Part shown: piece by piece, positions 2,662-38,035 of the stretch
Layout of the letters: the number at the start of each line of letters is the position of its first letter
Numbering within the stretch: position 1 is the stretch's first letter
Source of the DNA: Tepidimonas thermarum
GTDB taxonomy: Bacteria > Pseudomonadota > Gammaproteobacteria > Burkholderiales > Burkholderiaceae_C
Reading direction: 5' to 3'
Length of the DNA: 38,035 nucleotides
NCBI RefSeq assembly: GCF_007556705.1
Contig: NZ_VJOL01000025.1
Location: 1-38,035, forward strand
The notes under the pieces: model-generated
Seen by the model: only the letters and a program-made list of their open reading frames with translations
Told to the model about the DNA's origin: nothing
Databases searched by the model: none
Position numbers and translations under genes: made by a program

Positions 2662-2863
2662 TGCGACGTGACCACACATCCGCGCCCAAGTACTTCAGTG
2701 GTTCGGGATTGCCGATGCCCTTGAAGGGATCACGTAGTGCGGCCTTGACCAGTTCCAGTAACCGTTTGGCCGTGCGGCGTTCCGTTTCTACCCAGTAGCT
2801 CAAGTCTTCCAGAAACTCGGGCTGAAACACCGCGACGCGTTTGGCCTCAGGCTTCGAGGCCAT
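2585..2863 (-). CDS. yoeB: YoeB-family toxin (ribosome-dependent mRNA interferase)
   Basis: Type II toxin that cleaves mRNA in the ribosomal A site. The 92 residues contain the family signature: FLEDLSYW, a helical LLELVKAALRDPFKGIGNPEPLK segment, RRITQEHRCVY, and the C-terminal HY pair that acts in catalysis in E. coli YoeB. The start at 2863 (MASKPEAKR) gives the usual length and a 17-base overlap with the antitoxin gene, as in other yefM-yoeB operons. It is encoded opposite the late genes, and its 3' end overlaps the end of the first methyltransferase gene by 77 bases. Confidence 0.93.
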   Translation of the reverse strand: MASKPEAKRVAVFQPEFLEDLSYWVETERRTAKRLLELVKAALRDPFKGIGNPEPLKYLGADVWSRRITQEHRCVYLVKADRIEFLQGRYHY

Positions 2864-3128
2864 AGTGCTTCTCAAGGGCATCGACGGCGGTCGGGGCGAC
2901 ATCCCCAGCACGGGCGCGTGCCAAGGCGGCCAGCAGACGCTCGGCATTCTTCGGCGAGCGCAGCAGGTGTGCCGTCTCCATCAGGCTTTGCAGCTCATCG
3001 GCGGCAATCATCGCCACCGCATCCCCGGAACGGCGGCGTACCAGTATCACTTCTCGGTCATCGACCGCGCGGTCCATGAGCGTCTTGAACTGCTCCCGGG
3101 CTTGGCTGTAGGTGGTTTCGATGGTCAT
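2847..3128 (-). CDS. yefM: YefM-family antitoxin (Phd/YefM)
   Basis: Antitoxin and autorepressor of the YoeB toxin. The N-terminal DNA-binding part has the Phd/YefM pattern (TYSQAREQFKTLMDRAVDDRE, ILVRRRSGDAVAMIAADELQSLMET). The C-terminal part (residues ~55-93) would wrap the toxin. A strong AAGGAGG site lies 5 bases before the ATG. Antitoxin-first order and overlap with yoeB are canonical. The pair is a self-contained cassette placed between two methyltransferase paralogues on the opposite strand, and could stabilise the prophage. Confidence 0.93.
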   Translation of the reverse strand: MTIETTYSQAREQFKTLMDRAVDDREVILVRRRSGDAVAMIAADELQSLMETAHLLRSPKNAERLLAALARARAGDVAPTAVDALEKHYGLEA

Positions 3129-3133
3129 GGCAA

Positions 3134-3193
3134 CCTCCTTCTAATTGGACAGAATTATTGTACAACTATGGACCAACAAATGCTCGCTGACAA
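3134..3193 (-). promoter_or_regulatory. yefM-yoeB promoter, operator and ribosome site
   Basis: On the minus strand a -35 TTGTCA (3188-3193) and a -10 CATAGT (3165-3170) are 17 bp apart. Just downstream is the palindrome TTGTACAA (3158-3165), which contains the TGTACA core known as the YefM operator in E. coli. AAGGAGG (3134-3140) precedes the antitoxin start. The -35 and -10 boxes fall inside the start region of the second methyltransferase gene. Confidence 0.6.
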
Positions 3194-4442
3194 AATCGAA
3201 CTCTGGCCAACCAGTCGGCTGATCCCCTACGCCAGAAACCCCAGGAAGAACGATCACGCGGTCGAGCAGATGGCGGCGGCCATTACCGAGTTCGGGTTTC
3301 GCATCCCGATCATCGCCAAGAGCACAGGCGAGGTGGTCGACGGCCATCTGCGTCTCAAGGCCGCTTTGCGACTGGGGCTGGAGACGGTGCCGGTGATCTT
3401 GGCCGATGACCTGACGCCAGCGCAGATCAAGGCCTTCCGTATCCTGGCCAACCGCTCGGCCACCTGGGCGGACTGGGACGAGGACCTGCTGCGCCTCGAA
3501 CTCGAAGAGCTCAAGCTCGACGACTTCGATCTCGCGCTCACCGGTTTCGATGCCGACGAGCTCCTGGAAATCATGGCCGGCGAAGAAACCACCACCGAGG
3601 GCAACACCGACGAGGATGCTGCTCCCGAGGTGCCAGTCAACCCGGTATCCAAACCCGGCGACGTCTGGATCATGGGCCAGCACCGGCTGCTCTGTGGCGA
3701 TGCGACCGATCCGGCAAGTTACGACACGCTGCTGGGCACCGAGCGGGTGGCGATGATCTTTCAAGATCCGCCGTACAACGTGGACTATGCCAACAGTCCC
3801 AAGGACAAGCTGCGCGGCACCCACCGCCCGATCCTGAACGACAACCTGGGTGAAGGCTTTCAGGCCTTCCTGCTTGCCGCACTCAAGCCTGCGCTACAGC
3901 GGTGCGACGGTGCCATCTACATCGCCATGTCCTCCAGCGAACTGGACACGCTGCAGTCCGCCTTTCGGGCTGCCGGGGGCCACTGGTCCACCTTCATCAT
4001 CTGGGCCAAGAACACCTTTACGCTCGGGCGCTCGGATTACCAGCGCCAGTACGAGCCCATCCTCTACGGTTGGCGTGAGGGGGCTAATCGGCACTGGTGC
4101 GGTGATCGTGACCAGGGTGACGTGTGGGAGATCAAGAAGCCCGCGAAGAATGCCTTGCACCCGACCCAGAAGCCGGTGGAGGTGCCTGAGCGCGCGATTC
4201 GCAATTCCAGTCGTCCGGGCAGTCTTGTTTTGGACTGCTTCGGCGGTTCGGGTAGCACGCTGATTGCCTGCGAGAGGACGGGCCGCGTTTGTCGGGTCAT
4301 GGAACTCGATCCGAAGTATTGCGACGTTATTGTTCGCCGCTGGCAAGACTGGACCGGACAGAAGGCGCAGCGCGCTGACGATGGCTTGCTGTTCGATGAG
4401 CTGGCGAGCGATCAGCCCCTCGAGGCAGGGATGATCGACTGA
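3168..4442 (+). CDS. ParB-like domain fused to a DNA methyltransferase (N4/N6 type), copy 2
   Basis: Same architecture as the gene at 1180: ParB-like domain (residues ~6-110, IELWPTSRLIPYARNPRK, then VVDGHLRLKAA) and a beta-class methyltransferase with DPPYN at residues 200-204 and DCFGGSGST at 356-364. DPPY is the usual catalytic motif of N6-adenine enzymes, so this copy probably makes N6-methyladenine, whereas the SPPY copy may methylate cytosine N4 or adenine. The start is uncertain (ATG at 3168 or 3180): neither has a clear ribosome site, perhaps because the toxin-antitoxin cassette displaced the original leader. Confidence 0.88.
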   Translation: MDQQMLADKIELWPTSRLIPYARNPRKNDHAVEQMAAAITEFGFRIPIIAKSTGEVVDGHLRLKAALRLGLETVPVILADDLTPAQIKAFRILANRSATWADWDEDLLRLELEELKLDDFDLALTGFDADELLEIMAGEETTTEGNTDEDAAPEVPVNPVSKPGDVWIMGQHRLLCGDATDPASYDTLLGTERVAMIFQDPPYNVDYANSPKDKLRGTHRPILNDNLGEGFQAFLLAALKPALQRCDGAIYIAMSSSELDTLQSAFRAAGGHWSTFIIWAKNTFTLGRSDYQRQYEPILYGWREGANRHWCGDRDQGDVWEIKKPAKNALHPTQKPVEVPERAIRNSSRPGSLVLDCFGGSGSTLIACERTGRVCRVMELDPKYCDVIVRRWQDWTGQKAQRADDGLLFDELASDQPLEAGMID

Positions 4443-34808: not shown

Positions 34809-35233
34809 CCCCGATACTCACCACCTTGGCGCCGGGCCTGCTGGAAGCCGGCAGCCGACTCATCGACCGCCTGGTGCCTGACCCAGCCGAACGCGAGAAA
34901 GCCAAGCTCGCGCTGCTGCAGGCCGAGGGGCAGCTGGCGCTGCAGGAGATGCAGACCAGCCTCTCGGCGATCCTGGCTGAGGCCAACTCGGCCGACCCCT
35001 GGACCAGCCGGGTACGGCCGACGTTTCTGTATGTGATCTACGGCGTGATCCTGCTGTGCGTGATGGGCGCCATCATGGGCATCTGGTGGCCGACGCACGT
35101 CTTCCAGGCAGCGGAGAACTTGAACAAACTGCTGGGCGCGGTGCCCGAGAGCCTGTGGTGGCTCTTCGGTGCCGGCTACCTCGGCTACACCGGGGCGAGG
35201 AGCTTCGACAAGTGGCGTGGGCAGGCTCGCTGA
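34805..35233 (+). CDS. 3TM-type phage holin (GTA_holin_3TM family)
   Basis: A 142-residue protein: N-terminal helix, a charged helical stretch (PAEREKAKLALLQAEGQLAL), ADPWTSRVRPTFLYVIYGVI, then hydrophobic segments (YVIYGVILLCVMGAIMGIWW and LWWLFGAGYLGYTGARS). The SRVRPT...WWLFGAGYLGYTGAR pattern is characteristic of this holin family, first noted in gene transfer agents. A second membrane protein in the lysis cassette; it could be the holin or an antiholin. No spanin pair seen. Confidence 0.87.
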   Translation: MTPILTTLAPGLLEAGSRLIDRLVPDPAEREKAKLALLQAEGQLALQEMQTSLSAILAEANSADPWTSRVRPTFLYVIYGVILLCVMGAIMGIWWPTHVFQAAENLNKLLGAVPESLWWLFGAGYLGYTGARSFDKWRGQAR

Positions 35234-35267
35234 CCGGTGCTGCCGGGCATGACAACCTGAAACGACG

Positions 35268-35315
35268 ATCCCCCGATCTCACTGCCTTCACGGGTGGTGG
35301 GGTCGGGGGATTTTT
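35268..35315 (+). terminator. Intrinsic terminator of the late/lysis operon
   Basis: ATCCCCCGATC (35268-35278) pairs with GGTCGGGGGAT (35301-35311; one G-T pair), followed by TTTTTG. It lies 35 bases after the last lysis gene and is the clearest terminator in the window. Confidence 0.85.
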
Positions 35316-35343
35316 GCTTTGTATTGGGATGCGCCGGTAAAAT
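35314..35343 (+). promoter_or_regulatory. Candidate promoter of the Abi/HEPN gene and its leader
   Basis: TTGCTT (35314-35319) and TAAAAT (35338-35343) are 18 bp apart, immediately after the late terminator. A start near 35350 would give a leader of about 180 nt. The -10 is good and the -35 is weak. Confidence 0.45.
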
Positions 35344-35530
35344 GACGGCTTGGACAGGGGATGGATTCGTAATTTTCCGACCCCAGAAAAGACTAACCCC
35401 GGGTTCATCACCAGTCTCATTGGAGACTGGGAGAGGAATAGCCCGGGGACTGCTGACGAAGTATAACACACCTCCGCCACCGATTGCCAGTCCCCGCTGT
35501 GCCTTGACGGCGAGGTAGAGAGGGCAATCC
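35344..35530 (+). ncRNA. Candidate structured leader or small RNA upstream of the Abi/HEPN gene
   Basis: Several stems are possible. (1) CCAGTCTC (35411-35418) with GAGACTGG (35423-35430), loop ATTG, perfect. (2) CCCCGGG (35397-35403) with CCCGGGG (35442-35448), enclosing stem 1. (3) GGGGACTG (35445-35452) with CAGTCCCC (35488-35495), which competes with stem 2 for the same GGGG. A long leader with mutually exclusive stems is unusual for a moron gene. Rfam lists an 'AbiF RNA' associated with Abi_2-type genes, so a regulatory or antitoxin-like RNA is plausible. I cannot match it to that family by eye. Confidence 0.45.
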
Positions 35531-36247
35531 ATGCAACAGACAGGCTCCGGCAGCCAAGCAGCACCGACCCTCTCGAGCACGACGATCACCTGGTCGGAGC
35601 TCGAGGCTGCCTTTGCGCCTGAGCGCTTGGCGCCTTACCTGAACCACTCGGGGGGTGACCGCGACCGGGCGGTGGCACTCTACCTCTGGAACATCGCCCT
35701 GTGTGAGAGTCTGTATCCCTTGCTCAACCTGAGTGAAATCACGTTACGCAATCGGTTCCATCAGGTGCTCAGCCAGCATTTCCAGCGACTGGACTGGTAC
35801 GACGACGCGTGGCTGGATCAGCGGGATGCATCCAAGGTGTTGGAGGCCAAGCAGAAGATTGCTCGTCACCGGCTGAGTCCGACACCCGGGCGCGTGGTGG
35901 CCGAGTTGACGTTCGGATTCTGGACCAGCTTGCTCGACGTTCGCTACGAACGCAGCCGGGTTCTCTGGCCTGCCTTGGCGCCGAAGATTTTCAGCAACGC
36001 GCCTCGCAAGCTGCGCACCCGAAAAGATCAGTCTCCTTATGCAGCTCGACTGCGCACCCTGCGCAACCGGGTGTTCCACCACGAGCCGGTCTGGCACTGG
36101 CCCAATCTGCCGGCAGTGGTCAGGGAATCGGAAACCTGGCTACTCTGGTTGAATCCTGACATTGCCCGCTTGCACAGTCTGCTGGATCGCTTTCACAGCA
36201 TCCACGCGGCCGGCCCAGGTGGTATGCCGAGCATCAAGGCGGTGTGA
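35531..36247 (+). CDS. Abi-like protein with HEPN RNase motif (abortive infection)
   Basis: A 238-residue soluble protein of the Abi_2/AbiF-like superfamily. N-terminal helices (ALYLWNIALCESLYPLLNLS, EITLRNRFHQVLSQHF), then LTFGFWTSLLDVRYERSRVL, and the signature RNRVFHHEP at residues 178-186 with the HEPN pattern R178-x4-H183. HEPN proteins cut RNA; in abortive infection they stop growth of infected cells, protecting the lysogen population from other phages. The gene stands alone between the late terminator and the integrase, behind its own candidate promoter and leader. The GGC-rich surroundings show no sign of decay. Confidence 0.82.
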   Translation: MQQTGSGSQAAPTLSSTTITWSELEAAFAPERLAPYLNHSGGDRDRAVALYLWNIALCESLYPLLNLSEITLRNRFHQVLSQHFQRLDWYDDAWLDQRDASKVLEAKQKIARHRLSPTPGRVVAELTFGFWTSLLDVRYERSRVLWPALAPKIFSNAPRKLRTRKDQSPYAARLRTLRNRVFHHEPVWHWPNLPAVVRESETWLLWLNPDIARLHSLLDRFHSIHAAGPGGMPSIKAV

Positions 36248-36341: not shown

Positions 36342-37565
36342 TCACATAGTGGCCACTGCCTCCTGTCCCTGACTCGCCGCCGCCACCGTCCGTCCCACCC
36401 TGGCTCCGGCGACCACATTCCCCACCACGTTGACCGCTTCCAACATCGCCTGCGGTGACAGGTGCGCGTAGCGCATCGTCACCTTGGGATCGTGGTGCCC
36501 CAGGAGCTTCTGCACCTCATACAGCGACCGCCCGGCATTGACCAGGAAACTCGCATAACTGTGGCGCAGGTCGTGCAGCCGCACCTCGCCCAAGCCCACC
36601 TTCTTCCTGATCGAGTCCCAGGCGTAGAAGATCGACACTGGCGGCTTCTTGGTCTTCGGATTGAAGAACACCCAGGGGATGTCGTCCTGCCGAGGTAGCG
36701 ACAGCAGCAATTCCACCGCCGCATCGGAGAGCGGAATGTGGCGCGGTTTTTTCGACTTCGAGCGCGCCGCCGGCACCGTCAACATCCGCCGGTTGAAATC
36801 GATCTCGTCCCAGCGGGCATCCAGAATCTCCCGCTTCCTCGCCCCGGTGTAGAGCAGCAGCCGGATCACCTGGCCCACCTGCACATTGCGGTTGGTGTCC
36901 AGCTCATCAAACAGCCGCTGCACCTCCTCGGTCGTCAGGTACCGCTCCCGGGCACCGTGGTCCTCAAAGGGCTCGACGCCATCGCAGGGGTTGCTCTTGG
37001 GCGGCAGGATGTCCCAGCGGATCGCGCAGTTGTAGATGAACTTCATCAGCACGATCATCCGATTGCAGGTTCCAGCTGCGTAGCCCTTCTCGAACACCGC
37101 GTGGTGGAAGGCCACCACGTCGGAGCGGGTGATCCGATTCATCCGGAAATCGGCAAACACCGGCAGCAGATGATTGCGCAGCATCGTCTCATCCGTCTCC
37201 CAGCTGCGCTTCCTCGTCTTGGCGTAGGGCAGATACCGCTCGGCCACGAAATCCCCGAAGGTCGGCACATCCTTGAAGCGATGGCTCTCCACCTTGGGAT
37301 CGCCACCCTCGGTGACCATCTGCTTCATCTTGTGCGCCTTGGCCCGGGCGTCCGACACCGAAATCTCATCGGCCCGGCCAATCCGGTTCAGTCGCACCTT
37401 GCCGGCCGCATCGCGGTAGCGGAAGTAGAAGGTCGCTCCGCCACTGGCGCGATGCTCCAGCAAGAAGCCCTTGATCTCCGTATCGAAGTAACTCACGGCC
37501 CCGGAGGCAGGCTCGCGACCTGGCAGGGTCGCCAGGAATTCGGTCGTCAACGCTTGTGCTGGCAT
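36342..37565 (-). CDS. Tyrosine-type phage integrase
   Basis: A 407-residue site-specific recombinase. An N-terminal DUF4102-like arm-binding domain (residues ~1-90, VSYFDTEIKGFLLEHRASGG) is followed by a SAM-like core-binding domain (~105-200) and the catalytic domain with R243 (YTGARKREI), H331-x-x-R334 (HDLRHS), H357 (LGHHDP) and Tyr366 (TMRYAHLS). All key residues are present, so it should be active. GAGGAG precedes the start at 37565. The attachment site is expected near 37566-37690, but I see no matching repeat elsewhere in the window. Confidence 0.96.
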   Translation of the reverse strand: MPAQALTTEFLATLPGREPASGAVSYFDTEIKGFLLEHRASGGATFYFRYRDAAGKVRLNRIGRADEISVSDARAKAHKMKQMVTEGGDPKVESHRFKDVPTFGDFVAERYLPYAKTRKRSWETDETMLRNHLLPVFADFRMNRITRSDVVAFHHAVFEKGYAAGTCNRMIVLMKFIYNCAIRWDILPPKSNPCDGVEPFEDHGARERYLTTEEVQRLFDELDTNRNVQVGQVIRLLLYTGARKREILDARWDEIDFNRRMLTVPAARSKSKKPRHIPLSDAAVELLLSLPRQDDIPWVFFNPKTKKPPVSIFYAWDSIRKKVGLGEVRLHDLRHSYASFLVNAGRSLYEVQKLLGHHDPKVTMRYAHLSPQAMLEAVNVVGNVVAGARVGRTVAAASQGQEAVATM

Positions 37566-37689
37566 CGTCGTGCTCCTCTATCAATTGAGGGTCATATTAC
37601 GATACAATGCGCCGGAAAGGACACAAAAAGCGTCCGATAGACCAGAATATTTACCTACCAAGACCGGGCAAGAAAGAAGAGGAGTCGAC

Positions 37690-37815: not shown

Positions 37816-37854
37816 GTTGTGTATCGTTCTTTCTGTAAATTCCATTTTGCCGGT

Positions 37855-37911
37855 TGTCTGCTGGGCGGGGATCTCCGGCGCTACGCGCCTACGCTCCCCG
37901 CCCAGCAGACA
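37855..37911. repeat. 16-bp-arm hairpin in the IS leader
   Basis: TGTCTGCTGGGCGGGG (37855-37870) pairs perfectly with CCCCGCCCAGCAGACA (37896-37911) around a 25-base loop. Between the IS end and the transposase start, such hairpins usually block read-through transcription from outside, or hide the transposase start in long transcripts. Confidence 0.75.
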
Positions 37912-37961
37912 GCGCGAGGGTGGGTCTGACGCCATGACTTCGAGAAAGGAGTGTAACCCTC

Positions 37962-38035
37962 ATGGCAATACGAGTCGAAACCAACCCCTTGGAAGCCGCT
38001 TATGCGATCTTGCTCGAGAACGGACTGGATGGCGC
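37962..38035 (+). CDS. Transposase, IS256-like (partial, runs off the window)
   Basis: ATG at 37962 with AAGGAG (37946-37951) 10 bases upstream. Only 24 codons are present, MAIRVETNPLEAAYAILLEN then GLDG. This beginning resembles the N-terminus of a group of IS256/mutator-type transposases. DDE residues lie outside the window, so activity cannot be judged. Confidence 0.6.
   Translation, partial: MAIRVETNPLEAAYAILLENGLDG

Follow-up and report, generated by a model that had tools for sequence, protein, structure and literature searches.

What does a gene encode that stands by itself in a prophage, behind DNA that folds strongly, and does the folded stretch belong to its mRNA? The window (the whole stretch of DNA analyzed here, 38,035 nt from Tepidimonas thermarum) is a contractile-tail prophage, with genes for terminase, portal, tail sheath, and integrase. 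Genes for a GH108 lysozyme and a GTA-type holin are followed by the late terminator (35267-35312) and then by the gene in question, abi, after which comes the integrase gene (36342-37565), encoded on the opposite strand. The stand-alone position between terminator and integrase, described in an earlier note made from the sequence, is confirmed. Elsewhere in the window, the adjacent ORFs 1150-2661 and 2841-4442 each match phage families of ParB-like nuclease plus DNA methyltransferase (phrog_498). The right end (37846-38035) is present in many copies and contains an inverted repeat; it comes after an HTH-like ORF that starts at 37607 and that it seems to truncate. A 26-base stretch of it has 32 copies without mismatch in the same genome, and 19 of these lie no more than ~310 bases from a contig start.

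The features of the abi region are as follows, several of them predicted.

35314-35343, plus strand: possible abi promoter TTGCTT-18-TAAAAT, by eye only
35386-35396, minus strand: U-rich tract after the outer stem, an intrinsic-terminator-like 3' end, from U counts across loci
35387-35453, minus strand: small structured RNA gene, putative RNA antitoxin, ~67 nt, divergent from abi; ends deduced
35397-35403, minus strand: 3' arm of the outer stem, CCCGGGG on this strand, pairing with 35442-35448
35411-35430, minus strand: inner hairpin, with arms at 35411-35418 and 35423-35430
35442-35448, minus strand: 5' arm of the outer stem, CCCCGGG on this strand, partner of 35397-35403
35460-35468, minus strand: extended -10 box TGT-TATACT of the RNA gene, with a predicted +1 at 35453, six nt on
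35531-36247, plus strand: abi gene, for a 238-aa HEPN RNase-like protein of the PD-T4-5 / Abi_2 group
36062-36079, plus strand: HEPN catalytic motif R178-x4-H183 (RNRVFH), with residues invariant in homologues

The abi ORF is intact. Its product matches the PADLOC PD-T4-5 profile (E 2.2e-18), as do all 38 of the aligned proteins, the window protein among them; the score is 64.6 bits, against 226.9 bits for L174, the best found among E. coli plasmid genes. It also matches phrog_26181 (E 3.7e-12). None of the NCBIfam models matches it, and Pfam Abi_2 (PF07751) reaches E 0.0095 and 16.7 bits, below the gathering cut-off of 25.6; 25 of the 38 family members match Abi_2 at E<=0.001, the window protein not being one of them. 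The relatives carry no annotation beyond “Abi family protein,” and scans of viral contigs with other members of the family as queries yielded one locus and none.

The RNRVFHHEP motif that the earlier note had picked out (R178-x4-H183) proves to be well chosen: R178, N179, and H183 are unchanged in 38 of 38 aligned homologues. A structure model (AlphaFold2, 34 sequences) is all-helical, with a pLDDT of 92.8. Its only convincing match in the PDB is 8vz6, a PbAbiF dimer with ncRNA bound, and this is modest (probability 1.00, TM 0.50, E 1.9e-3); no PDB structure match to the model reaches E 0.001, and a PDB search by sequence gave nothing credible. Sequence and model combine the features expected of the HEPN RNase superfamily (R-polar-x3-H in a predicted all-helical fold), and with 8vz6 as its top match the model falls within the AbiF fold. 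The product of 35531-36247 is a HEPN RNase-like Abi protein, and a predicted RNase.

The ~180 nt upstream of abi had been described as a foldable leader. Folding is indeed strong, on the plus strand (35340-35531, -74.3 kcal/mol, z -3.82, with none of 200 shuffles as low) as well as on the minus strand (35385-35454, -31.3 kcal/mol, z -4.31), but the conserved element is just ~35387-35453, and it is most likely a minus-strand RNA. The best-conserved block in ten close sequences is ~65 bp long (35387-35452), and its flanks diverge, most clearly in L002. Around the inner hairpin are a short UUC/GAA helix (35436-35438 with 35404-35406) and a conserved internal loop, CUC opposite U, with GGUGAUGA. 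Two stems had been thought to compete for the GGGG at 35445-35448. The competition lacks support: in the minimum-energy fold this GGGG pairs with CCCC at 35397-35400, in a stem neither arm of which varies among the ten close sequences.

The same layout of outer stem, short helix, internal loop, and inner hairpin recurs upstream of homologues with ~31-45% protein identity, so that the covariance analysis of homologous leaders suggested in the earlier note does recover a conserved element. In a 20-sequence minus-strand alignment, pairing holds in 99.6% of the 280 cells of its 14-pair structure, with double-sided changes in 9 of the 14 pairs. None of 500 shuffles is as high either in pairing fraction or in number of double changes; for further pair types, 21 of 500 reach the observed value. 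When the partners are slid by one column, pairing falls to 46%. In class A loci, the internal-loop bases are conserved while the stems change. A peptide encoded on the RNA strand was considered and rejected, since loop-length differences are not divisible by three and conservation tracks pairing. A second hairpin with a changing stem can be seen by eye on the minus strand, 3' of the RNA, in L020 (2860-2960) and relatives (class A2); many proteobacterial relatives have it.

Because MAFFT alone misaligned the outer stems between classes, a covariance model (R1) was seeded from the 20 sequences that are in register, the window and its close relatives being excluded. R1 matches the window on its minus strand, at 35391-35453, with 51.9 bits and E 3.8e-12; this is the sole such match in the 2.7 Mb of its own genome, where the next best has E 2.2. 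Over 87 sources, among which are 17 of the 20 seed sequences, matching by construction, there are 57 matches at E<=1; 54 of these are at E<=2e-6, and all 54 stand on the strand opposite abi.

A hairpin looks similar on either strand, so the strand was tested in four ways. The first was a count of wobble pairs in curated outer stems (78 loci, with 43 distinct arm pairs, identical ones entered once, and 277 cells), for which arms and helix lengths were chosen after the sequences had been seen: 254 cells are Watson-Crick, 17 are G.U only on the minus strand (A.C on the plus), 3 are G.U only on the plus strand, and 3 are other (binomial p 0.0026). Tests of promoter and U-tract reuse the curated stem positions, but not the wobble pairs. 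Of 42 Bacteroidota loci, 39 have on the minus strand a TAnnTTTG box, taken here to be the Bacteroidota -7 consensus, usually 9 nt ahead of the stem (1.8 expected from shuffles); 5 have one on the plus strand. Outside the Bacteroidota, 47 of 67 loci have a TATAAT-like -10 box 9-13 nt ahead of the stem on the minus strand (6.7 expected), and none has one on the plus. Both counts include near-identical loci. In the -10 profile, the distance is exactly 11 nt for 34 of 64 distinct upstream sequences. Over the 10 nt that follow the stem, U averages 6.6 on the minus strand vs. 2.3 on the plus (109 loci), with the minus count higher at 96 loci and the plus count at 8; in class C alone this bias is absent (2.7 vs. 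3.2).

Two coarser tests stand against these four. Fold energies of 74 elements, loop positions included, are lower on the plus strand for 46, lower on the minus for 27, and equal for one (Wilcoxon p 0.18). Automatic helix extension gives 34 cells on the minus and 32 on the plus strand for the outer stem, and 10 and 12 for the inner, showing no minus bias because the extension runs into conserved loop positions. At the window RNA gene, the promoter scan shows no good -35 on the minus strand, and a simple terminator scan lists no terminator there on that strand. For abi itself, the candidate promoter put forward earlier is visible by eye only: its boxes are at 35314-35319 and 35338-35343, and 8 of 10 close sequences retain TAAAAT, but the scan of 35230-35560 on both strands finds no sigma-70-like site of 9/12 or better.

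Two loci have another arrangement. In L039 (Hymenobacter) and L015 (Cupriavidus) the RNA is at the 3' end of abi and convergent with it, in L039 with its own -7 box and U-tract retained, by eye; L164 has the layout of L015 and an equal score, and may be from the same species. The RNA therefore need not belong to the abi mRNA. The existence of the RNA and its strand are well supported by the sequence comparisons, and the conserved element most likely constitutes a small RNA gene by itself, read from the minus strand, with its own extended -10 box and with the outer stem as its terminator, rather than the leader or switch of the abi mRNA first envisaged: the strand counts, the minus-strand promoter and terminator signals, and the downstream copies in L039 and L015 all point away from that.

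How closely is the RNA tied to abi? Of 136 abi loci, 125 were recognized as having it, in a tally, made partly by eye, that includes near-copies but omits 11 duplicate or control loci (L087, L088, L096, L118, L127, and L132-L137) and holds three doubtful assignments (L053 and L009, entered as present, and L063, entered as absent). The 11 loci without a recognized RNA are L063; L091 and L131, which are fragments; L092-L094, which are distant homologues; and the plasmid loci L141 and L144-L147, the last of which looks broken. Long enterobacterial and Acinetobacter plasmid-type Abi loci (L144-L146 and L175-L177) give no credible R1 match, the best being 12 bits. One genome has two related abi genes in tandem (L120 and L130, at G700:C254:4801-6437).

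In 295 Bacteroidia genomes, all four strong R1 matches (E < 1e-14), three of them seed loci, lie 25-149 nt from abi in divergent orientation. The 399 genomes of the order of G004 also gave four strong matches (E < 1e-8), and abi adjoins two of these, one being a seed locus. For the other two, L162 (1501-1558, 69.0 bits) and L163 (1501-1560, 49.7 bits), no abi was detected within ~1.5 kb by tblastn with six family queries, and these RNAs are possible orphan antidotes. Solitary RNAs together with a scarcity of intact abi genes lacking the RNA are the pattern expected from toxin loss; two cases prove nothing. Of 17 weaker matches in the two genome sets (E 4e-4 to 0.09), 15 were fetched, none of them adjoining abi, and such matches are taken as chance.

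The RNA superfamily falls into ten classes by our own grouping, and eight phyla are named in the titles of the records concerned. Placed on a tree of the proteins from 97 loci (from 109, less 8 near-copies and 4 without the 150-aa piece), these classes require 12 changes, against a minimum of 9 and a mean of 68.6 after shuffling, an agreement to which taxonomy and near-copies contribute.

The closest described counterparts are the AbiF systems. AbiF of Clostridioides difficile is toxic, and RCd22 neutralizes it by binding it directly, both in cis and in trans, according to the parts of that report consulted, which also describe RCd22 as a same-strand, co-transcribed leader of abiF (PMC12373285). 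According to passages of a review, each PbAbiF monomer binds one AbiFr, and the RNase is inhibited by bulge nucleotides (PMC12737573). The window locus resembles these in having a HEPN RNase of the same structural group (8vz6) with an RxxxxH motif, beside a short RNA of stem, internal loop, and hairpin; abiF of phage phiC2 lies inside the lysis module, and abi in the window after the holin gene. The two proteins, however, have no BLASTP similarity (E 4.7), the window RNA is unrelated in sequence to RF03085 (abiF RNA), and it is divergent with promoter signals of its own, whereas RCd22, as described in the text consulted, is a same-strand leader. The search with the Rfam AbiF RNA model that the earlier note had proposed came out negative: RF03085 has no match at E<=10 in 35230-35560. 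As a positive control, phage phiC2 was matched at 37.6 bits on the same strand as its gene; in four related genomes no copy was found, and control genomes gave none as well. Rfam 15 gathering hits number zero in the window and zero in 20 related loci. Six sub-threshold Rfam hits in 35230-35560 were judged to be chance; one of them is mir-1289 (E 0.007), which overlies the late terminator.

In type III toxin-antitoxin systems, by definition, the RNA is encoded on the toxin strand, in the toxin operon; that of ToxIN is a tandem-repeat pseudoknot, and its toxin is non-HEPN. The window pair is like ToxIN in that a protein toxin is proposed to be held by a structured RNA. It is unlike in that the RNA is a single non-repeat hairpin on the strand opposite abi, and hence outside the same-strand operon of the type III definition.

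PD-T4-5, as far as its description in the sections consulted goes, is a plasmid-borne single gene, toxin-antitoxin-like, that causes abortive infection in E. coli and is a distant relative of AbiF/D; no RNA partner is mentioned in those sections (PMC9519451). The L174 gene is present in 7 of 5426 E. coli genomes, on plasmids in all of them. R1 has no match in its upstream region, where (508-627) a minus-strand sigma-70-like TTGACA-17-TACTAT and a terminator bracket a different putative small RNA; the scan found one promoter-like site (0.4 expected) and one terminator (0.3 expected), both on the minus strand. At L175 the scan gave three promoter-like sites, two on the minus and one on the plus strand, with no terminator by the scan rule, and minus-strand promoter-like sites and terminators were seen by eye upstream of some of the plasmid-type loci. 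On one clear scan, one mixed one, and a few loci judged by eye, the divergent layout may be wider than the R1 family.

By analogy with AbiF, the locus is best read as a type III-like toxin-antitoxin unit with an RNA antitoxin whose transcription would run divergently from that of the toxin gene. It is fairly probable that the cassette consists of a HEPN RNase and a divergent, opposite-strand structured RNA, with its own promoter and terminator, that holds the RNase silent until infection. The RNA would bind the Abi dimer as AbiFr/RCd22 binds AbiF, as suggested by the fold kinship of Abi with AbiF (8vz6, TM 0.50, E 1.9e-3), and contact could be through the conserved internal loop (CUC opposite U, with GGUGAUGA). 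Bound RNA would hold the RNase silent in the lysogen. A second phage might then disturb host transcription or degrade the short-lived RNA; with the RNA lost, the RNase would be freed to cut RNA, and growth of the infected cell would stop (abortive infection). Binding, neutralization, release on infection, and abortive infection at the window locus are all proposed from analogy. In its central idea of an Abi/HEPN defense gene with a conserved structured RNA that probably silences the RNase, the earlier note appears to have been right.

The minus-strand RNA could instead act in cis as a type I-like antisense, pairing with the 5' part of the abi mRNA and blocking its translation or stability. The abi start codon is within tens of nt of the RNA in many loci, an mRNA started upstream would contain its complement, and a plus-strand TAnnTTTG box lies upstream at 5 of the 42 Bacteroidota loci. 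A perfect antisense, however, has no need of internal-loop bases that are conserved while the stems vary, as in class A; the RNA is 3' of abi in L039 and L015; and the fold kinship of Abi is with an RNA-binding protein, AbiF. This possibility is regarded as unlikely.

Less plausible still is a guide or sensor RNA, which, instead of or besides being an antidote, would direct the RNase to phage RNA or switch it on there; this would be RNA-guided HEPN targeting in an early form. AbiD/F HEPNs do form a clade with the HEPN domains of Cas13an, as stated in the portion of that study consulted (PMC12165695), but the RNA is nearly all stem and conserved loops, and no variable guide-like stretch was seen in the alignments, so that a guide role seems quite improbable.

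A plus-strand 5' leader whose folding or termination governs abi, in the way suggested for RCd22 in cis, could draw on the good folding of the plus strand (lower in energy in 46 of 74 elements) and on the action of RCd22 as a leader of its abiF mRNA in the account consulted (PMC12373285), but the wobble bias, promoter boxes, and U-tracts are on the minus strand and the downstream copies in L039 and L015 would serve no leader, making it very improbable. Equally remote is a conserved terminator or DNA hairpin that insulates abi without any RNA partner role: outer stem and U-tract are terminator-like, but a promoter box at fixed distance on the 5' side, conserved internal loops, an inner covarying hairpin, and RNA classes that follow the protein tree would all be superfluous.

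A wider claim is about as likely as not: that there is a widespread, undescribed toxin-antitoxin architecture in which HEPN RNases of PD-T4-5/Abi_2 type are paired and co-evolve with a divergent, trans-acting RNA antitoxin, a sister arrangement to AbiF-AbiFr on a branch near the roots of Cas13. As part of this reading, the RNA superfamily of PD-T4-5/Abi_2-type loci would be a fast-diversifying one. In the open-access literature on PD-T4-5, on AbiF, HEPN, and ncRNA, on structured RNA catalogues, and on divergent RNA antitoxins, no title or opening passage was found to describe such an RNA.

Surveys limited to same-strand leaders or to RF03085 would miss a divergent RNA. PD-T4-5 is listed as a single-gene suicide system, which leaves its tolerance by the host unexplained, and the divergent RNA is a candidate for the missing antidote; whether abi genes are cloned with or without the ~150 bp of upstream DNA may decide tolerance. 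Should the RNA bind the HEPN dimer in the manner of AbiFr, these loci would provide a second family in which RNA control of HEPN RNases before Cas13 could be compared.
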